From the NCBI GenBank assembly GCA_031291635.1, contig JARLIR010000088.1, positions 1 through 41,310 of the forward strand: a DNA stretch of 41,310 nucleotides. The letters are read 5' to 3'. This DNA is from Rhizomicrobium sp. Lineage in GTDB: Bacteria > Pseudomonadota > Alphaproteobacteria > Micropepsales > Micropepsaceae. The notes beneath the pieces are model-generated. The model saw only the letters and a list, made by a program, of their open reading frames with translations. It made no database searches and was not told the origin of the DNA. Of this stretch, positions 1,775 to 16,124 are shown piece by piece. Made by a program: the position numbers and the translations under genes. Position 1 is the first letter of the stretch; every line of letters starts with the position of its first letter.

Positions 1775-3430
1775 ATGCATAAAGCATTCGAGATCGCGAT
1801 GGGTGCCTATATCTACCTTCTGGGCGCCGTTTCTGGTTTGGGTCACTGGCTTGGTACGGATTCCGACCAATCCTACACCACCGCAGCGCTCGTGGTCTCC
1901 AGTGTGCTACTGGGCCTGTTCTGCTGCGTCTGGGCGATCATCACCCAGCTGCGCCACAAATCCTATCGCCAGGCGATGCGCGGCGCTCTGGCCCGTGCCC
2001 AAGCCGATATCCGCTTTCGCGAAACCATGATCTCGGCCTGCCCCGAAGCCATCGCGGTGCTCGGCACCGATATGAATGCCCCGCTCAGCTATCGCGGCGG
2101 TTCGGGTTTGCTGCAAGCCTGCCTGGAAGGCCCGGATGCGCCGGTATTGGCAGCCAAACTCGAAACCCTGCTCGCCAACGGCATGGCCTTCTCTCTTTTG
2201 GTCCGTACCTCTAGCTTTCCGCAAGTGGCCGTGCGCGGTGCCGCCGTGGGGTCCCGTGCGGCCGTCTTCTTTCGCATCGATAAAGATGCTGCCGAGCCGG
2301 AAGGCGATTTCTCCGCCGTGCTCGATGCCCTGCCCATCCCCGTGTGGATCCGCAATCGTCATCTGGTGCTGACTTGGGCCAACCGCGCCTTTCTGGCCGC
2401 TACCGGTTCGGCGACACTGCGCGAAGCCCTGTTGTCGGATGCGCATCTGGATCGTTCGGAACGTGATCTGGCCCGCGGCACCACAGAGGGTGGCGAAGTC
2501 GTGGCCGTGCGCCGCTTCGCCGTCATTCAAGGCGAGCGCCGGGCGCTCTCCATCGACATGCGCCGCCTGCGCGACAAATCCGTAGCGAGCTTTGCTCTCG
2601 ATCACACCGACATAGCCAAGGCGGAAGCCAAGCTGCAACTCGGCGTCGACGCCTTTGGTGCCGTTCTCAACACGCTGGATACGGCCGTGGCGATTTTTGG
2701 GACCGATCAGCGCCTGGCCACCTACAACAGCGCCTATGCACGGATGTGGAATCTGCCCGAACAATGGCTTGAGACCCACCCCAGCTTGAGCGATGTGCTC
2801 GACCGCTTGCGCGAAACGCGTCGCCTTCCCGAACAGCGCAACTTCGCCGCCTGGAAGCAAGAACACTTGGCGCAGTTCGATGCCGCCAATCACAATGTCA
2901 CCGAGACTTGGCACCTGCCGATGGGCATCAGCGTCGACGTCCGCTCCGTACCCTACCAGCTCGGCGGCGTGGTCTACCTGTTCCGCGACATCAGCGAGCG
3001 CCTGCGTAAAGAAGAGACCTATCAACTGCTGGTCAATTCGCAGCGCGCCGTGCTCGAGACCATTGCCGACGCCACCGCCATGTTTGGGCCGGATGGCCGT
3101 CTCAAGATCCACAACGAAGCTTTTGCCAAACTGTGGCAGCTTGAAGAAAATGAACTGAGCGGCGAGCCGCATTTATCCAAGGTCGCCGACCTCTGCGCCG
3201 ATCGCACCGGACGCGATGGCATCTGGAGCATGATCGCCGCTGGCGTCAACGCCCCAGATCCGGAACGCTTCGGCGAGTGGGGCCAGATCCGTCGCGCCGA
3301 TGGCCGCTGCCTGACCCTGTCGCTGGTGCGCCTGCCCGATGGCGCCACGTTGGTATCGTTCACCGATATGACTGACGTGCAGCGCTTCCAAAGCGTGCTG
3401 GCGGAAACCAAAGTGATCGCGGCGGCATAA
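1775..3430 (+). CDS. Membrane-anchored PAS-domain protein lacking a kinase domain
   Basis: This 551-aa protein has two N-terminal hydrophobic segments (about residues 8-25 and 37-60). At least three PAS-like regions follow, near 175-285, 290-410 and 415-540; signatures include LDTAVAIFGTDQRLATYNSAY and VLETIADATAMFGPDGRL. The PAS series resembles the sensor half of alphaproteobacterial hybrid or DivL-like kinases. The chain stops about 14 residues after the last PAS (DMTDVQRF...), where a HisKA dimerisation helix would normally begin, and a terminator hairpin follows at once. No kinase remnant is visible downstream. It may be a sensory partner or scaffold for a kinase encoded elsewhere. The start is supported by AAGGGA upstream. 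PAS assignment is firm; the signal and partner are unknown. Confidence 0.85.
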   Translation: MHKAFEIAMGAYIYLLGAVSGLGHWLGTDSDQSYTTAALVVSSVLLGLFCCVWAIITQLRHKSYRQAMRGALARAQADIRFRETMISACPEAIAVLGTDMNAPLSYRGGSGLLQACLEGPDAPVLAAKLETLLANGMAFSLLVRTSSFPQVAVRGAAVGSRAAVFFRIDKDAAEPEGDFSAVLDALPIPVWIRNRHLVLTWANRAFLAATGSATLREALLSDAHLDRSERDLARGTTEGGEVVAVRRFAVIQGERRALSIDMRRLRDKSVASFALDHTDIAKAEAKLQLGVDAFGAVLNTLDTAVAIFGTDQRLATYNSAYARMWNLPEQWLETHPSLSDVLDRLRETRRLPEQRNFAAWKQEHLAQFDAANHNVTETWHLPMGISVDVRSVPYQLGGVVYLFRDISERLRKEETYQLLVNSQRAVLETIADATAMFGPDGRLKIHNEAFAKLWQLEENELSGEPHLSKVADLCADRTGRDGIWSMIAAGVNAPDPERFGEWGQIRRADGRCLTLSLVRLPDGATLVSFTDMTDVQRFQSVLAETKVIAAA

Positions 3431-3463
3431 GGCCGGTTAGAACCTTTACAGCACCCCCTCTTC

Positions 3464-3493
3464 ATGGCCGGGCTCACCCCCGGCCATTTTTTT
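3464..3493 (+). terminator. Rho-independent terminator after the PAS gene
   Basis: A 9-bp perfect stem, ATGGCCGGG/CCCGGCCAT, with a short loop is followed by seven T residues. It lies about 35 bases beyond the PAS stop. Its stem resembles the longer palindromic repeat at 37213-37293 (shared TCATGGCCGGGCT). Confidence 0.8.
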
Positions 3494-3584
3494 GTGCCGT
3501 GCGTTAAAGCGTCAGAAGGAGGAAAACGCGGCGCGAGCCCGGCGCGGACGCGTCAGGGCTTCAACGACAGTGTGATTTGGGAAA

Positions 3585-4184
3585 TTAGTGGGCGCCCCAC
3601 CATTGCGCTACTTTGCGGTCGATGATCGACCCCAGGGACGCGGAGCGGAGCGGAACAGTGCTCGAGCCCAGCGTGGTGCGCAGACCGTAGTCGCGCATGG
3701 ACGCCAGCCAGCGCTGACGCTGCTCGAGCGGAAGCGACGAGACGCAACCGATCAGAACAGGTTCTTCAGCAATCAAGCCCGGCAGCTCCAGCATCAGCAT
3801 CTCTTTGCCACCAGGCCGCAGCATGCTGCGATAGGCGAAAGCCGGCATGTCCATGGTGACAATGACATGCGCCTTGCGGCTGGCGCCGGGCTGCGCCAAA
3901 TAAGAAAACAGCAGGTGCAAACCTTCCGGCGGCTGACCGAACCACAACGGATAGACGACTGCGAGCCGGTCGGCCCAAGCCATGTCGTCGACCATCGCCT
4001 TCGCGCTGTCGCCGCAACCGTGCTTGAGATCTTCCAGGGTGGTTTGCGAACAGGCGCCAACATCGAGGCGGCGTACTTGCCAGCCACCAGCCTCAGCGCC
4101 ACTTTGGTAGGCGGCGCTCAAACCTGCACAAAAACGTTCCATCCGAGGATCTGGATGACCGTTGATGATGAGCAATGTCTTCAT
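3585..4184 (-). CDS. Flavodoxin-fold NAD(P)H dehydrogenase (quinone)-like protein
   Basis: This is a 199-aa flavodoxin_2-family protein (NQO1/KefF/MdaB type). The N-terminal strand and FMN/FAD phosphate loop read MKTLLIINGHPDPRMERFC, and the flavin-contact segment YPLWFGQPPEGLHLLF is typical of the family. It probably uses NAD(P)H to reduce quinones or related electrophiles in the cytosol. The ORF track starts at 4346, but homology begins at the ATG at 4184, so I use that. Its stop lies close to the 3' end of the PAS gene (convergent). Upstream on the same strand, 29 bases away, is the degenerate receiver gene, so the two are probably co-transcribed. A redox link to the adjacent signalling genes is plausible but not shown. 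Confidence 0.85.
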   Translation of the reverse strand: MKTLLIINGHPDPRMERFCAGLSAAYQSGAEAGGWQVRRLDVGACSQTTLEDLKHGCGDSAKAMVDDMAWADRLAVVYPLWFGQPPEGLHLLFSYLAQPGASRKAHVIVTMDMPAFAYRSMLRPGGKEMLMLELPGLIAEEPVLIGCVSSLPLEQRQRWLASMRDYGLRTTLGSSTVPLRSASLGSIIDRKVAQWWGAH

Positions 4185-4850: not shown

Positions 4851-5468
4851 ATGAACAGCAACGCACCCATATGCATCGTCGATGACGATGACGATGTTAG
4901 AAATTCGCTACGCGTTCTTTTGGAAGCCGCGGATTTCCCCGTGAAAGATTATCCGTCCGCTGATGCGTTTCTCAGCGACGATGTTTTTTCCGCCTCGTGT
5001 TTGATTGCCGATGTTTGCATGCCCGGTATGGACGGCCTTGCGCTTCAACATGAAGTGTCGCGCCGCCGCCGGGACCTTCCGGTGGTGTTTTTGTCGGGCT
5101 TAGGCGAAGTGGGCGCTGCGGTACAGGCGATGAAGGCCGGTGCAGTCGACTTCCTCGAAAAGCCGCTCGACGGCGATGCTTTTCTGGCCTGCATCCGGCG
5201 CGCCCTGGCAAGAGGCGCTCACGATCGCACAGTGATCGCGCAAACCAAAACCGCGCGCCGCCTTATCGCCAGTCTCACACCACGTGAAGCCGATGTGATG
5301 GAGAAACTGGTGGACGGCCTGTCGAACAAAGCGGTCGCCCAGGACCTCGGCATTTCGCCGCGCACGGTGGAAGTCTATCGCGCCCAAATTATGAATAAGC
5401 TGAAAGCTGGAAACCTGTCCGACATCGTGCGCATCGCCATCGCTGCCAAAGCCGAAATCGCCCTATAA
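4851..5468 (+). CDS. FixJ/NarL-family response regulator
   Basis: This 205-aa protein has an N-terminal receiver (about 1-120) and a C-terminal LuxR-type HTH (about 140-200). Receiver residues are intact: acidic cluster DDDDD, phospho-acceptor Asp in IADVCMPGMDG, Ser in FLSG, Lys in FLEKP. The HTH motif is SLTPREADVMEKLVDGLSNKAVAQDLGISPRTVEVY. Such proteins bind DNA as phosphorylated dimers and activate transcription. The track begins at 4767, but the ATG at 4851, with GAAGGACG upstream, starts right at the receiver fold. No histidine kinase lies nearby, so the phosphodonor is unknown. It sits 69 bases upstream of the second pentapeptide gene on the same strand, so they may share a transcript or a regulatory link. 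Confidence 0.92.
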   Translation: MNSNAPICIVDDDDDVRNSLRVLLEAADFPVKDYPSADAFLSDDVFSASCLIADVCMPGMDGLALQHEVSRRRRDLPVVFLSGLGEVGAAVQAMKAGAVDFLEKPLDGDAFLACIRRALARGAHDRTVIAQTKTARRLIASLTPREADVMEKLVDGLSNKAVAQDLGISPRTVEVYRAQIMNKLKAGNLSDIVRIAIAAKAEIAL

Positions 5469-5537
5469 GTATAAATCGCAATGGGCGCGGAAACCGTTCC
5501 TTAGAGTGCCCACCGGATACTGTCCCAAACTCGGGGC

Positions 5538-6650
5538 ATGACCATGGCAGCAACGGTCGCACATGACGGGGTAAAGGGCGCCCGCGCCTTTTCACCGGAA
5601 GAGCTAGCAGACGTTCTGCGGGACCATGCGACCTATATGTCCCATTTGCAGGGTGGCAAGCGTGCGAATTTGCGCTTCGCCGACCTTCGACTCGCGAAAC
5701 TGGCCCATCGCGAGCTCTCGGACGCAGATCTTTCCGGCATCAATCTGCAAGGCGCGGATCTGAGCTATGCCGAATTCATCAGCGCCGACATCCAATGTTC
5801 CGATATCCGTCATGTCCAGGCGCGTTGCAGCAACTTTTCCCATGCCGATATGCGCGGCACGATTCTGAACGGCAGCAATTTCAATCGAGCAAAACTAGAC
5901 TACACCGATTTGCGACCAGGCCGCCTTCTCAAGATGAATCCAAGCGGCGTTGTCAAAGAAGTTCTCGAACGCTGCGGTTCTGCCGAGCACACTGATTTCA
6001 GCGAGTGCTCGCTCTTCGGTGCCTCTTTCGAAGGTGCCAAATTGCAAGGAGCCAGTTTTCGTGGCGCCATCATCCACGCCACGCGCTTTAAAAATGCAGT
6101 TCTTACAGGGACCGATTTCGAAGGGACCCTCTTAAGTTACGTAGTGCTGGACGATTTGCATCTCTCGGAAGCCGTACTCAAGACCTGTATCCTGGCACCG
6201 CCCACCGGCGATCCTGCCGCCGCACGGGTGCGCCTCACGCGTCTGCTCCAAGAGCACCAGCGTTGGATTGAGAGCGACTCACGTGCCGGACACTGCGCCG
6301 TTCTCGATGGCGAGGATTTGCGCTCATTGGGACAAAGCCTTAGCGGCTTTAAGCTCACTGCTGTTTCAGCGCGCCGTTGCATCGCCGTCGCAGCCAGCTT
6401 CGCTGGTGCAGAGCTGCAAGGCGCCAATTTCGAAGAGGCCGATCTGCGCGGTGCGAATTTCGAAGGCGCCGATCTGCGCGGTGTCCGTTTGCGCGGCGCC
6501 AAGCTGTCCCATGCCCGCTTCCGCAATGCCAATATCGGCAGTCTCCTGCTGCGCTCCGGAGAGCGTCTCGATTTCGATATCTTCCGCGCAGAGATCAATG
6601 AGGACCAGCTTTCCGAGGTCCGCGGCGCCAACACCACGCTTCACGGTTGA
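5538..6650 (+). CDS. Two-module pentapeptide-repeat protein (copy 2)
   Basis: This 370-aa protein is a paralogue of the one at 269-1369, aligning over its whole length. It has a header with HATYMSHLQGGKRANL near residue 35, a first repeat block (about 45-215), a second header HQRWIESDSRAGHCAVL near 240, then FKLTAVSARR and a second block (about 285-350). Repeats are of the A(D/N)LxG type. It appears cytoplasmic. ATG codons at 5538 and 5544 are both possible starts, and neither has a strong ribosome-binding site. It lies just downstream of the FixJ-type regulator. A scaffold or DNA-mimic role is only what is known of the fold; nothing in the sequence identifies the partner. Confidence 0.9.
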   Translation: MTMAATVAHDGVKGARAFSPEELADVLRDHATYMSHLQGGKRANLRFADLRLAKLAHRELSDADLSGINLQGADLSYAEFISADIQCSDIRHVQARCSNFSHADMRGTILNGSNFNRAKLDYTDLRPGRLLKMNPSGVVKEVLERCGSAEHTDFSECSLFGASFEGAKLQGASFRGAIIHATRFKNAVLTGTDFEGTLLSYVVLDDLHLSEAVLKTCILAPPTGDPAAARVRLTRLLQEHQRWIESDSRAGHCAVLDGEDLRSLGQSLSGFKLTAVSARRCIAVAASFAGAELQGANFEEADLRGANFEGADLRGVRLRGAKLSHARFRNANIGSLLLRSGERLDFDIFRAEINEDQLSEVRGANTTLHG

Positions 6651-6914
6651 TCGCCAAACGCGACGCGTCTGCTCCACTTACAAACGCGGTGCGGAGCTTT
6701 GGTCCGCCGAGTCGATTATGGCTCGCGAATAACACCGGGAGTTGAGCCTCAAGAAAGAGCTCCGTATACGGGATATTGTGCCTACCGCGCCAGCGCAGCC
6801 TCAACCTGCAGTTTAAGCCCCCGACATTCGAAATCACTGCGCCGTTGCGCGACTCTCTGGCACGCGCTCTTTTCTACTCGGGCTCCGTAACGACAAGCGG
6901 AGGGGGAGAACACG
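6651..6914. other. Intergenic region before the XRE regulator
   Basis: A 264-base spacer with no credible ORF. It ends in a strong purine-rich ribosome-binding site (GGAGGGGGAGA) five bases before the ATG at 6915. No T-tailed hairpin follows the pentapeptide gene. Confidence 0.4.
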
Positions 6915-7304
6915 ATGTCGCCGAAAGCTGCCAACTCGATCGACGCCCATGTCGCGGGAAGGCTACGTACGTTTCGCCGTCAATTGGGCCTGTCCCAAGC
7001 CGACGTTGCCGCCAAACTTGGTGTCACCTTCCAACAGGTTCAAAAATACGAAGCCGGTATCAACCGGGTCGGCGCCGGCCGCCTGTTCCAGCTCGCCTGC
7101 CTCTACGGCATGCCGGTGCAGGAGTTCTTCCCGCGCGGGCTGGTAGCTGCCGACGCCGCCAAGCGCACCGCCAAATCCGAAGAGATCGCGGCCTTTGCTG
7201 TCAGCGCCGATGGTCTCAGGTTATGTGAGGCCTTCGTTAAAATCACAAACCCCAAGCAGCGCCGCGTCGTGCTCTCGCTGATCGAGGACATGACCGAGCG
7301 CTAA
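6915..7304 (+). CDS. PraR-like XRE-family transcriptional regulator
   Basis: This 129-aa protein has an N-terminal Cro/C1 helix-turn-helix (about residues 8-66): GRLRTFRRQLGLSQADVAAKLGVTFQQVQKYEAG. The VTFQQVQKYEAGxNRVGAxRL signature followed by P(V)xEFF is typical of the PraR/RlxR-type regulators widespread in Alphaproteobacteria, several of which repress biofilm or quorum-sensing genes. The C-terminal part (LRLCEAFVKITNPKQRRVVLSLIEDM) matches the helical tail of that family. The ribosome-binding site is very strong. It is monocistronic and convergent with the esterase. The target here is unknown. Confidence 0.9.
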   Translation: MSPKAANSIDAHVAGRLRTFRRQLGLSQADVAAKLGVTFQQVQKYEAGINRVGAGRLFQLACLYGMPVQEFFPRGLVAADAAKRTAKSEEIAAFAVSADGLRLCEAFVKITNPKQRRVVLSLIEDMTER

Positions 7305-7343: not shown

Positions 7344-9281
7344 CTATTTTGCGCTCTGTATGGGCGGAAAAGTCCCAGCCCAAACGCTGTAGACGGCATT
7401 GGGATCGATAGCCCCCGTCGTCCAACTGGTGTTGCTGGCGTTCAACACGACCGCGGCTGCGCCCGTCTGATTGGTCGTGTAGGGCGTTTTCCAGATCGAA
7501 CCCGGATTGGTCGGGTTGGTGGCAAAAGCCGCCCAGGCCGCATTCACCGATGCCGCAAAGTTCTTGAGCTGTGGCGTCACCCGGCTGCTGAATTGCGACG
7601 GCACCACGATGCTCAGAGTATCGAACACATAAGGCAGCTCGCTGCCGTGACAGACGAAATTGCCGATATTGGGATCGCAGGCGCCGTTATCGATGTCGAC
7701 CCAGGTTCCGTTGACCTCACTGCCGTAGATGTCCATGACCGGCGCTTGATTGAAGTAATAGGCATAGGTCGCCGACACGCCGCCACTAGCGAGGGCGCTG
7801 TTCGCCATCACGACATTGCCGATCGAAAAGTCGTAATCGAGCACGACGTTGGATGCCACTTGGCCATAGCGGTTGTAGTAGGGCGCGTTAGGCTGATAAT
7901 CCGGCGGCGTGGTCTTCGACACTTTGTAGCGCGAATTCTGCTTGGCCAGGCTGCTGGCGGTGCCAAGCTTCTGGAAGCCACCATCGACCACCGCGCCGTA
8001 GACGAGCGCGGACGGGCTGTTGGCCGGTTTTTTGCCGACCTTAGCCGCCACCAGCGCCGCAAACACGGCCCCCTCGTCCTGATTGATGCCGAAGACGAAT
8101 GGCTTGGGCACCGTGCCGCTGGCATAGCCCTGATAAGGCTGCCCCGTGATGAAGCTGCCATCGATCACAGGCTGAAATGGCAACCCTCGCAGCCCCATAT
8201 ACCCAAGGGCGACGTCCGCCTTGCCGTTATTGCCGAGAAGAAAACTATTCTCGGCGCTAATGATGTCCGCCACCGGCGCGGTGAGCGGATTGAATTTGGG
8301 TTTGATAAGACAGGACTGTCCCGACAGCTTGCACAATGTGGTAAGATATTGGTTGCCGATCGCGCTCGGCCCCTTGTCGCCCACTTTGCTGTAGAGAAGC
8401 CCAACCGGGTTGCTCTCCATGATCGCGGCGTTGAAGAGCGTGGTGCTCGAGGGTATGGCGAAAAGGTGCAGGCCGACCGACATGGCCCCGGCACTCTCGC
8501 CAAAGATCGTAATCTTGCTCGGGTCGCCGCCGAAGGCGCTGATGTTGTCATGGACCCAATTGAGGGCCATCTGTTGATCGAGGATGCCGTAATTGCCGGT
8601 GGCCTTGGCACCGAATTTGTTGCCGACCAAAAAACCCAGCGCACCCAAACGATAGTTGAGTGTCACCAGGATGACTTTTTGGGAGGCAAAGGCGGCGCCG
8701 TTATAGACCGGCAGCGAACCAGCCCCGTCGAGGAAGGCGCCACCGTGGATGAACACCATCACCGGATAGGTATTGGCAGCGGGCGGCTGATTGTTCGGCG
8801 TGGGCGGAATCCAGACATTGAGGAATTGGCAGGTCTCCGCCATGTCCAAAATAGAGCCTTCGGGCGCTTTGGCTTGCGGGCAAATTGGCTTGAAGTTTGT
8901 CAGCGTCGTCTGCGCCGGAAGCTTGAACGCTTGAGGCGGTTGCCAACGCTCGGCGCTCGCATACTGAATGCCGGGATAAGCAACTCCGCTTGGTCCATTG
9001 GCACCATTGGCGATCACACCGCAAAGCTGCGCATTGCCGCCTGCAGTCCATTTCGGATTGGTTAGGCTGATGCAGATTGGTTGTGCGGGCGGTGAAAACG
9101 GATTGAACGCAGTCGGCGCAGCCGCGCGAAACAGATGCGAGCCCACTGGCTCGGCAAATTGCGCGGCTTGCACTGCTGTGGTGGATTTGGCGGATTTAAC
9201 GGCAGGCGTTGATTTTGCAGAGGCGGGAACAAGCAAGAGTAAACAGGCGGCAACTGCCGCCCTGAACCGGTGCGCTCTCAT
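7344..9281 (-). CDS. Secreted type-B carboxylesterase
   Basis: This 645-aa protein has an N-terminal signal peptide (RFRAAVAACLLLLVPASA) and an alpha/beta-hydrolase domain of the carboxylesterase type B/cholinesterase family. The oxyanion-hole motif (VMVFIHGGAF), nucleophile elbow (FGESAGAMSVGLHLF), an acidic member near NQDEGAVFA and the catalytic His in CHGSELPYVF are all present. It probably hydrolyses carboxylic esters in the periplasm or outside the cell; the substrate cannot be read from sequence. The start is an ATG with a G-rich stretch upstream. A motif shared with the region before cyoA (TAGTAYAGCTCTAAA) lies 54 bases upstream. Its neighbours are unrelated. Confidence 0.92.
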   Translation of the reverse strand: MRAHRFRAAVAACLLLLVPASAKSTPAVKSAKSTTAVQAAQFAEPVGSHLFRAAAPTAFNPFSPPAQPICISLTNPKWTAGGNAQLCGVIANGANGPSGVAYPGIQYASAERWQPPQAFKLPAQTTLTNFKPICPQAKAPEGSILDMAETCQFLNVWIPPTPNNQPPAANTYPVMVFIHGGAFLDGAGSLPVYNGAAFASQKVILVTLNYRLGALGFLVGNKFGAKATGNYGILDQQMALNWVHDNISAFGGDPSKITIFGESAGAMSVGLHLFAIPSSTTLFNAAIMESNPVGLLYSKVGDKGPSAIGNQYLTTLCKLSGQSCLIKPKFNPLTAPVADIISAENSFLLGNNGKADVALGYMGLRGLPFQPVIDGSFITGQPYQGYASGTVPKPFVFGINQDEGAVFAALVAAKVGKKPANSPSALVYGAVVDGGFQKLGTASSLAKQNSRYKVSKTTPPDYQPNAPYYNRYGQVASNVVLDYDFSIGNVVMANSALASGGVSATYAYYFNQAPVMDIYGSEVNGTWVDIDNGACDPNIGNFVCHGSELPYVFDTLSIVVPSQFSSRVTPQLKNFAASVNAAWAAFATNPTNPGSIWKTPYTTNQTGAAAVVLNASNTSWTTGAIDPNAVYSVWAGTFPPIQSAK

Positions 9282-13916: not shown

Positions 13917-15737
13917 CTAGACTGCAGGAGCCACCAAGGCGCGGGCCGGCTTCGGCGCGGTTGCTACCTGTTGAACCACGACGCTCAGAAGCAAGTTTTC
14001 GTGGTCGACCACATAACGTCGCTGAAGAAGGAAATCGAGATGCTGTGCGGCCGCTTCGGGTAATCCCTCGCGCGCACGCGGACGCTCCAAATGCGCCACC
14101 GCGTTGACCGCTTCCGGAGACAGCACGACGAGCGGTTCGCGTGCGATGGGCCTTGTGTCGATGACGACTGCGGCGCCGTTTGCCCCCGTCTCCAGGTGCA
14201 GGAGCGGCCGAGACCGCGTGCCCTGCCACAGAGCTTTCCAGTGGTTCACGCTGTCGCAAAATTCTCTCACCAGCACTGCGTCGTCCAGAAACTCCGTCGT
14301 GTAGATACCGTCGAAGTGATAAGCGATCTCGTCGAGCGGTGCGTCTGACGGATAGAGACCGCGGTAGATATCGAACGGCTTGATCGCGGGAATACCCATG
14401 CGCTCGTGATCATTAAAATTCGGACTGAAGCGATCCATCATGATTTCGGAGAGGCCGTCCGGCGGACGCAGATGCATGATGGCGGGGAAAAGCGCGAGCA
14501 TGTCGCGATAGTTCTGCTGCGTCTCGCCCGGAAAGCCGTAGATCAGGTTCCAACCAGCACGCATGCCAAGTTTGGCGCTGCTGCGTAACAACATGATATT
14601 CTGGTGCGCGGAAATGCCCTTACGCATCAGCCTTAGGACCGGCGTCGACAAGGATTCGACGCCCGGCTGGATGCTGTATATGCCAGCCTTTTGCATCAAG
14701 GCTACCTGCTCTTCCTTGAGATTTGCCTTCGTCTCGTAGAAGAGTTTGGGCTGGCGCGGCAGGGCCGCTAAATGCGGCAGCACCGTTGAAAAGTAAGAGA
14801 GCGGGATGATGTTGTCGGCTGTGCGAATTGGCCGACCGCCCCATTGCTCGTCGAGGGCGACAAGCTCCCGCACCACCCGCTCCGGCCTCTTTTCACGGAA
14901 GTTCATGCTTGCCTGGTTGAGGCCGCAAAACGTGCAGTGATGCTTGGCGCCCCACCAACAGCCGCGCGACGACTCATAGGTTATGTAGCCCGGCAGATCC
15001 GGCGGTAGCCGTCCTGCATCTTGCTGTTCGCGCATTGCGGCGATGAAGTCGGAGAAATCGGCATCTGGCGAATCGTCCATGTTCTGTATCGGCGCGCACC
15101 CGACAATGCGATCACTAGGACGCAGGCCGCGGTGCAGGTAGGCTTCGCAGAAATCGGGAAACGCGGTGTCCGCCTCGCCGTCGAAAAAATAATCGACGCA
15201 ATCGAAAACCTGTGCGAGCCCCTTTGCCATCACGCCGGTGACGTTGGCACCGCCCATGACAATCAACGCCTCAGGCAGAACCGCGCGTACCCGGCGCGCA
15301 ATGGCGAACGCCGACATATTCTGCTGAAACATGTTGGTGATGCCGACGATACGCGGCTTCCTGGCGGCAATCGCTTGCGCGACCTCATCCAGGTGCGGTC
15401 CGACAGCAGGCGCGACGGTCGCGATCAATTCGCGCACTTTGGCATGCTCAATGCCCTCGGGAATCCGCGCCAGGACCTCTGGCGGATAAGCGTGCGGCTT
15501 GAATATGTACTCGCCCGGCTGCTTGCGCACCAACGTCTTGCAAACCGTTTCGTAGGTGTCATAGCCAATGCGTGCCGCCATCAGTACGCTGGCATAAAGC
15601 GCGCCGACCTGCAGGCCCCGCTGGCGACAGGCGGCAAGCAGAACAGACGTGCCGAGCGGCGTCAAATTCAGTGTATCGAACGCAGGTATGACGAGACAGA
15701 TGTCGGTAGCTGTCTCCAATTCCCTTGGTTTTTCCAT
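13917..15737 (-). CDS. B12-binding radical SAM enzyme, RiPP-maturation C-methyltransferase type
   Basis: This 606-aa protein has an N-terminal cobalamin-binding Rossmann-like region (about 10-215; VGITNMFQQN, LIVMGGANVTG, DYFFDGEAD). A radical SAM domain follows (about 245-480) with a CX7CX2C cluster motif (C260, C268, C271 in GCWWGAKHHCTFCGLN). The GCWWGxxxxCxFCGLN signature and the length match the family called RiPP maturation radical SAM protein 1 / radical SAM C-methyltransferase, which modifies ribosomally made peptides. The C-terminal roughly 120 residues are variable. It stands alone: no precursor, transporter or protease is recognisable next to it, so substrate and even RiPP function are uncertain. 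The ribosome-binding site is GAGG, 11 bases upstream. Confidence 0.85.
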   Translation of the reverse strand: MEKPRELETATDICLVIPAFDTLNLTPLGTSVLLAACRQRGLQVGALYASVLMAARIGYDTYETVCKTLVRKQPGEYIFKPHAYPPEVLARIPEGIEHAKVRELIATVAPAVGPHLDEVAQAIAARKPRIVGITNMFQQNMSAFAIARRVRAVLPEALIVMGGANVTGVMAKGLAQVFDCVDYFFDGEADTAFPDFCEAYLHRGLRPSDRIVGCAPIQNMDDSPDADFSDFIAAMREQQDAGRLPPDLPGYITYESSRGCWWGAKHHCTFCGLNQASMNFREKRPERVVRELVALDEQWGGRPIRTADNIIPLSYFSTVLPHLAALPRQPKLFYETKANLKEEQVALMQKAGIYSIQPGVESLSTPVLRLMRKGISAHQNIMLLRSSAKLGMRAGWNLIYGFPGETQQNYRDMLALFPAIMHLRPPDGLSEIMMDRFSPNFNDHERMGIPAIKPFDIYRGLYPSDAPLDEIAYHFDGIYTTEFLDDAVLVREFCDSVNHWKALWQGTRSRPLLHLETGANGAAVVIDTRPIAREPLVVLSPEAVNAVAHLERPRAREGLPEAAAQHLDFLLQRRYVVDHENLLLSVVVQQVATAPKPARALVAPAV

Positions 15738-16086
15738 AGAACGGCTGCCTCGCCACGAGGGAAGTCGGACTGTGTACTGTTCCGCGCCTTACAGCAACCG
15801 TTGCTCGTATTGGGCCACTGCTATTCCAATAGGTTGGTATAAACTAGGCGATGACTACCAATGACGTCGACGCGTTGGCCCAGCGAAATACTGTTCTGAC
15901 CTCCGCGTCGTGGGCTTTCTGTCCGGAGGGCAGGCAGCAGCGACCGGGATGGTGAGCCTTGCCGAAGACGGCCGGCATAGCCCCCTTCGTCCGAAGGAAT
16001 TTGATGATGCACAAGGGATGCCGGGCACCTTGGGGCGGGCGACGGAAGCTGTGTGCGTTCCAAGGCTGGTGAAAATTGGTGAATAG
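15738..16086. other. Intergenic region upstream of the radical SAM gene
   Basis: This 349-base gap contains the radical SAM promoter and the 3' region of rpsI. ORF-track entries on the minus strand (15821-16063, 15844-16089) have no recognisable product. A plus-strand frame opens at 15865 and ends with TAG at 16084-16086, just before the hairpin. Its first ATG is at 15949, without a good ribosome-binding site. Confidence 0.35.
15949..16086 (+). CDS. Possible 45-aa small ORF (unconfirmed)
   Basis: The frame reads MVSLAEDGRHSPLRPKEF... to ...LVKIGE and stops at the foot of a hairpin with a T-run on the plus strand. In-frame sequence without a stop continues upstream to 15865, so it could be the end of a larger, decayed gene. 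No Shine-Dalgarno and no family were recognised. It could equally be chance. Confidence 0.15.
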   Translation: MVSLAEDGRHSPLRPKEFDDAQGMPGTLGRATEAVCVPRLVKIGE

Positions 16087-16124
16087 CAAAACAGCGGCCT
16101 ACATTTCTGCAGGCCGCTGTTTTT
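16087..16124 (-). terminator. Terminator of rplM-rpsI
   Basis: ACAGCGGCCT and AGGCCGCTGT form a perfect 10-bp stem with a 10-base loop. TTTTGC follows on the minus strand and TTTTTAT on the plus strand. It lies about 25 bases past the rpsI stop. Confidence 0.85.

Follow-up and report, generated by a model that had tools for sequence, protein, structure and literature searches.

PoyC carries the unusual cluster motif CX7CX2C, which has also been described in methylases of bottromycin and polytheonamide biosynthesis (PMC5682303). PoyC methylates the beta carbons of Val and Ile, and one peptide is shared by PoyB and PoyC (PMC5682303, PMC11285071). Such C-methylation of unactivated carbons is a rare, sought-after peptide modification. 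Among lasso peptides, kinases of the paeninodin type, marked by a His-Lys-Asp-Asp set, phosphorylate an invariant C-terminal Ser (PMC9266682). The lasso modifications listed in PMC9266682 and PMC11285071 include O-methylation, but not C-methylation by B12/radical-SAM enzymes, and titles and abstracts, which cover the literature incompletely, yielded no lasso peptide linked to cobalamin-dependent radical SAM enzymes or to C-methylation.

The enzyme gene and its surroundings

We analysed a stretch of 41,310 nucleotides of Rhizomicrobium sp. DNA (the window), in which a complete ORF encoding 606 residues, with an ATG start, lies between rpsI and cyoA (Table 1). The product matches NCBIfam model TIGR03975 (rSAM_ocin_1, 'RiPP maturation radical SAM C-methyltransferase') over residues 1-604 of 606 with 525.7 bits, above the cut-off of 281.85, whilst the next-best models (ApyD, HpnJ, PhpK, HpnR, BchE) reach 39-52 bits, far below their cut-offs. 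It combines B12-binding and radical-SAM domains with the cluster motif RGCWWGAKHHCTFCGLN, in which C260, C268 and C271 form the CX7CX2C pattern and are invariant across ten aligned sequences. A preliminary description had placed the enzyme among the RiPP-maturation C-methyltransferases from this motif and the B12 domain, an assignment that the family score and Pfam domains bear out: judged by its sequence, the gene codes for a RiPP-type B12/radical-SAM C-methyltransferase, with methylation as the predicted activity.

The structure predicted from ten aligned relatives has a mean pLDDT of 79.9, with low values in the motif loop, and matches the solved folds of OxsB, TokK, TsrM, CysS and MgmA; no close solved homologue was found by sequence. 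This overall fold is common to non-peptide enzymes, and the gene sits beside housekeeping genes, as might be expected if the substrate were a lipid, cofactor or other metabolite, like those of HpnR, BchE and OxsB. We consider such a substrate highly improbable: the models for HpnJ, HpnR and BchE score 39-45 bits against the 525.7 bits of TIGR03975, CX7CX2C is the motif reported for PoyC- and bottromycin-type peptide methylases (PMC5682303), and the tree described below ties the enzyme to cluster-borne RiPP enzymes.

Comparison with orthologues of 91% identity (in genome G010) and 83% identity gave dN/dS values of 0.127 and 0.113. A value of about 0.13 shows purifying selection on the gene and, together with the intact motifs, rules out a pseudogene. 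Its G+C content equals that of the window.

Upstream of the gene lies rplM-rpsI and downstream cyoABCD; in agreement with the preliminary description, no precursor, exporter or protease stands beside it in the window. The flanking gaps, given there as 446 and 349 bases, measure 411 bases on the rpsI side and 338 on the cyoA side (longest ORF), sizes that shift with the choice of start codon. Their small ORFs had been described as weak. None is conserved between orthologues, because DNA homology with the G010 locus extends only 75 bases upstream of the ATG and 23 bases past the stop codon, and none matches the precursor profile introduced below, which rules out a cis precursor in the flanks. 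Searched over its whole length, the window gave no match to that profile and held no lasso cluster of precursor, PqqD-type B1, B2 and cyclase; likewise, no precursor with a nitrile-hydratase-like leader, as in the PoyB/PoyC proteusin system, lies beside the gene. The conserved bases upstream of the ATG probably comprise the promoter and ribosome-binding site, and no B12 riboswitch or other known RNA was detected upstream in the window and five related loci. The gene is separated from the rplM-rpsI operon by a terminator-like hairpin. Elsewhere in the window, the ORF at 7344-9281(-), which lies immediately downstream of cyoABCD, encodes a large carboxylesterase-like protein that has a signal peptide.

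Table 1. Features of the window, of the lasso loci in the window's genome (G000) and of loci carrying clade-B enzymes.
Feature	Location	Strand	Basis or remark
Predicted cobalamin-dependent radical-SAM RiPP C-methyltransferase gene, clade A, 606 aa	window 13917..15737	-	ORF call, TIGR03975 and Pfam matches, tree
B12-binding domain PF02310	window 15153..15398	-	Pfam, residues 114-195
Radical_SAM domain PF04055	window 14490..14972	-	Pfam, residues 256-416
C260-x7-C268-x2-C271 [4Fe-4S]-cluster motif, PoyC type	window 14925..14960	-	Sequence and alignment; compared with PMC5682303
75-base stretch conserved with the orthologue in G010, unrelated beyond	window 15738..15812	-	DNA comparison
Terminator-like hairpin behind rpsI, rich in G+C and with T following	window 16090..16124		Read from sequence
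Precursor-like ORF, ordinary lasso locus of G000	L197 8865-9119		Ends ...VWQTPMVILGSITQDTATNQNIVIHDTIHNSGS, Ser last
Precursor-like ORF, ordinary lasso locus of G000	L198 8141-8476		Ends ...VWSPPTMAVDMIVDQTLSKSSPVAETTISTCHVS, Ser last
Precursor near clade-B enzyme	L038 4766-4918		Genome G028
Precursor near clade-B enzyme	L039 4215-4364		
Precursor near clade-B enzyme	L040 11802-11987		
Precursors near clade-B enzyme, two copies	L041		Locus holds precursors and enzyme only
Precursor near clade-B enzyme	L093 16539-16775		
Precursor near clade-B enzyme	L298 5161-5397		
Precursor near clade-B enzyme	L307 4820-5068		No B2 or kinase detectable

Clade A and its genomic sites

The window enzyme belongs to a group of nine (clade A), found in the window's own genome (G000), G002, G010, G022, G027, G028, G071, G061 (Sphingomonas sp. 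QA11) and G180. These nine rows form a single clade in the tree (SH-aLRT 100), sister to a clade with enzymes borne in lasso clusters (support 95), and the two together are set apart from 30 other TIGR03975 proteins (support 100).

The sites of the clade-A genes vary. In G010, the sister genome (support 100 on an rplM-rpsI tree), the closest orthologue sits among arabinose genes; in the rpsI region of that genome, similarity to the window stops about 85 bases after rpsI and the enzyme gene is missing there. Five other genomes of the genus have orthologues of 58-60% identity that adjoin or lie near rnr, whilst the gene adjoins glmS in Sphingomonas sp. QA11 and in a relative, G180 (83%). A lasso gene adjoins none of the nine clade-A genes, those of the single-contig genomes G027, G071 and Sphingomonas sp. 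QA11 included, which makes an assembly or binning artefact an unlikely cause. Isolation is the normal state of clade A and not an accident of G000, and the orphan status noticed in the preliminary description extends to the clade as a whole. At two loci, genes for a BlaI-type repressor and an M56 (BlaR1-type) peptidase adjoin the clade-A gene (L034 7620-9723, L037 6448-8366); they are absent from the others.

One might suspect the window gene to be the relic of a cluster that has moved, kept for a while without a substrate, as its site differs between the sister genomes G000 and G010 and no substrate was found in G000. We regard this as very unlikely, since the dN/dS of 0.13 against G010 and the intact motifs argue for selection in use, and the isolated site at rnr is stable in five genomes of the genus.

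Lasso clusters and the PEILILLS precursor family

Paralogues at 43-49% identity sit mostly in clusters. Scoring AsnB-type cyclase, PqqD RRE, HprK-type kinase and B2 as lasso genes revealed such genes within reach at 16 of the 20 non-A loci of the subclade, judged from tables, as against 0 of 66 TIGR03975 loci of lower identity (p = 5e-14). One set of these paralogues, clade B, is present in seven genomes and lies near a precursor in all seven (Table 1). At the G028 locus, an HprK-like kinase (3137-4087) is followed by a B2-like protein, the peptide, a PqqD protein (4947-5282) and an AsnB-type cyclase (5285-7225), and then, on the opposite strand, by a methyltransferase and the radical-SAM enzyme. 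Its lasso proteins were recognised by PF05402 (63.3 bits, PqqD-type B1), PF13471 (53.8 bits, above the cut-off, B2) and PF00733 (84.7 bits, cyclase), whilst the lasso-specific NCBIfam models NF033536 and NF033535 match below their own cut-offs (67.9 against 80 and 303.9 against 525). The kinase carries LHAN, GKST and SDD, which are compatible with the His-Lys-Asp-Asp set of paeninodin-type kinases.

In Sphingomonas pruni, two lasso-clade radical-SAM genes lie tail to tail (L100/L310 144-3742), with no lasso genes within the stretch examined. In G002, the parts are scattered over the genome (L199 7256-12475 and L200 7513-8961): two side-by-side cyclase genes, with about 50% identity to the G028 cyclase, share one contig, PqqD and the kinase lie on another, and the precursor is far away. 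Beside more distant lasso-clade enzymes, precursors were sought by regular expressions and by all-against-all BLAST, which returned only noise.

The precursors align as [YW]xxPxF...A...E-[TS]-[GN]-x-x-x-G-[PA]-E-I-[LIV]-[LI]-[LI]-[LI]-S (hereafter PEILILLS): a leader like [WY]xxPxF...A...E-[TS] precedes a putative core of about 13 residues, [GN] to Ser. Lasso macrolactams close at an acidic residue and have rings of 7-9 residues; the Glu here is invariant in 8 aligned sequences and would give a 7-residue ring were the core to begin directly behind T/S. The Ile after this Glu occurs in all precursors from clade-A genomes. No leader family in NCBIfam or Pfam was matched by four of the relatives' precursors (50-72 aa).

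Some PEILILLS-type precursors are themselves isolated (L079 8053-8211; L086 about 8029-8115, at G002:C8:659029-659115; L309 7905-8063): their genomes carry clade A, no lasso or radical-SAM gene was detected nearby, and they are candidates for purely trans processing. A second precursor copy in G010 (C67; L078 8160-8501(-)) lies beside a PqqD gene with its leader replaced by transposase-like sequence, and looks to have been disrupted by an insertion element.

We compared the occurrence of the enzyme and of the precursor profile across two sets, 60 genomes from the genus of the window and 295 from Sphingomonas. The PEILILLS precursor was present in eight of the nine clade-A genomes and, at comparable strength, in none of the 346 others; the one clade-A genome with no match is G000, which is 82% complete (267 contigs). 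Fisher's test returned p = 1.4e-7 for the window's genus, 2.3e-5 for Sphingomonas and 1.6e-15 for the pooled set, values that overstate independence because the clade-A genomes amount to four lineages on the rplM-rpsI tree (29 genomes; G180 left out). A phylogeny-aware sign test over four pairs gave a median p of 0.125 and cannot reach 0.05 with only four independent lineages. A held-out prediction came true in G071, the sole clade-A match among 23 new genomes, where the precursor was found first and clade A afterwards. Eight Sphingomonas genomes with other lasso-clade enzymes and without clade A have no such precursor. G002 combines clade A with an isolated precursor and has no clade B; its precursor match is weaker (1.6e-7), yet it keeps the full GPEILILIS ending.

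Weaker profile matches in G106 (E 2e-6), G114 (9e-5) and G012 (0.05) were left out of the count. Those of the Sphingomonas genomes G106 and G114 were rejected as the same precursor, since they lie beside phage-type structural genes and have Ala where the others have Ile. They are short lasso-precursor-like ORFs (L311 8683-8883 and L312 7978-8109, ending ENGSLLGQEALVLLS and ENGSLVGAEAVLLLS) situated between a portal-like gene behind which they lie and a phage-capsid gene that follows at once (PF05065; L311 scores 283 bits), perhaps a gene-transfer-agent cluster. Both genomes are without clade A, and the replacement of Ile by Ala rests on these two sequences.

The substrate could also be a different, unrecognised peptide, perhaps very short or of its own family, with clade A simply accompanying lasso loci; clade A is never beside a lasso gene, and precursors can be too short for profile detection. 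We hold this to be unlikely, as it leaves the co-occurrence with one precursor type unexplained, and as no cis candidate exists for another peptide: the flanks are not conserved, and the sites (rnr, glmS, cyo/rpsI, arabinose genes) bear no relation to one another from lineage to lineage.

Proposed function and comparison with described systems

Because clade-A relatives occur almost only with it, the PEILILLS precursor is the likely target. We therefore lean towards the view that the clade-A enzyme is a trans-acting C-methyltransferase whose normal substrate is the PEILILLS lasso-type precursor, encoded elsewhere in the genome. The preliminary description had offered either a distant or very short peptide or some other substrate; the co-occurrence favours the distant peptide, whilst the precursor expected in the window's own genome was not found (none at E below 2 in the profile search).

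For G000 itself, the substrate may lie in the missing part of the genome, or may be one of two ordinary lasso peptides. The genome holds two lasso loci (contigs C256 and C151) with AsnB-type cyclase, PqqD, kinase and precursor-like ORFs, both ending in Ser (Table 1), and the clade of the enzyme is lasso-associated. That the enzyme modifies one of these precursors in place of a PEILILLS peptide nevertheless seems distinctly unlikely to us: neither cluster has a TIGR03975 enzyme beside it, the feature common to the other clade-A genomes is the PEILILLS precursor, and the sister genome G010 carries both clade A and PEILILLS. A PF13471 match on contig C230 was discarded as a lasso cluster, being a lone gene between corrinoid-protein-like and ppx-like genes.

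From the co-occurrence we infer that the clade-A enzyme acts on the PEILILLS peptide, and we posit the following course for methylation, its site and timing, and a lasso topology of the product. The enzyme would bind SAM and methylcobalamin and remove a hydrogen from one of the precursor's aliphatic side chains; methylcobalamin would then supply the methyl group to unactivated carbons in the aliphatic tail. The simplest site would be the beta carbon of the invariant Ile after Glu, the residue that is Ala in the two weak homologues from genomes without clade A. By analogy with the timing of paeninodin phosphorylation, methylation may precede leader cleavage and ring closure by the lasso proteins. 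In genomes with clade B, a single peptide is probably modified by two methyltransferases, like PoyB and PoyC, since G027, QA11 and G180 each have a single strong precursor match and both paralogues.

Counting against this proposal, no clade-A gene adjoins the precursor, no PEILILLS precursor was found in G000, and with 304 bits the lasso cyclase falls short of the NCBIfam cut-off of 525. The precursor and clade B moreover share most of the co-occurrence, so that some other cause might tie clade A to clade B. As a tentative generalisation, and with less confidence than in the substrate itself, we suggest that Alphaproteobacteria could have a family of C-methylated lasso peptides, served by a cluster-borne B12/radical-SAM enzyme and by a second, conserved one that acts in trans from an unrelated site, on isolated precursors as well.

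Presence and absence across hundreds of genomes links an orphan RiPP enzyme to a likely substrate, where cluster-based mining would miss both the trans enzyme and isolated precursors. The precursor and the region of its modification can be tested in Sphingomonas sp. QA11, an organism whose genome is complete.

Compared with described systems, the window enzyme shares with TIGR03975 the whole-length match, the domains and the CX7CX2C motif, but belongs to a lasso-associated subclade and to a branch never found beside its precursor. Like PoyC and PoyB of the polytheonamide pathway, it has the CX7CX2C motif and a B12 domain, and two enzymes would act on one peptide; PoyB and PoyC, however, lie in one proteusin cluster, whereas here the precursor is of the lasso type and one paralogue of the pair is encoded elsewhere. 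With paeninodin-type clusters containing an HprK-related kinase (PadeK, SyanK), the lasso loci have in common PqqD-type B1, B2, cyclase, kinase and the invariant C-terminal Ser (PMC9266682); they differ in the additional B12/radical-SAM enzyme, encoded within the cluster (clade B), in trans (clade A) or both, and in the missing kinase of some clusters (L307). Methylation of lasso precursors also has a parallel in LasF and StspM (PMC9266682), which are ordinary SAM methyltransferases that O-methylate the C-terminal carboxylate, whereas C-methylation by a B12/radical-SAM enzyme is predicted here. The enzyme belongs to a known family, of which the lasso-associated, trans-acting branch with its matched precursor family appears to be new.
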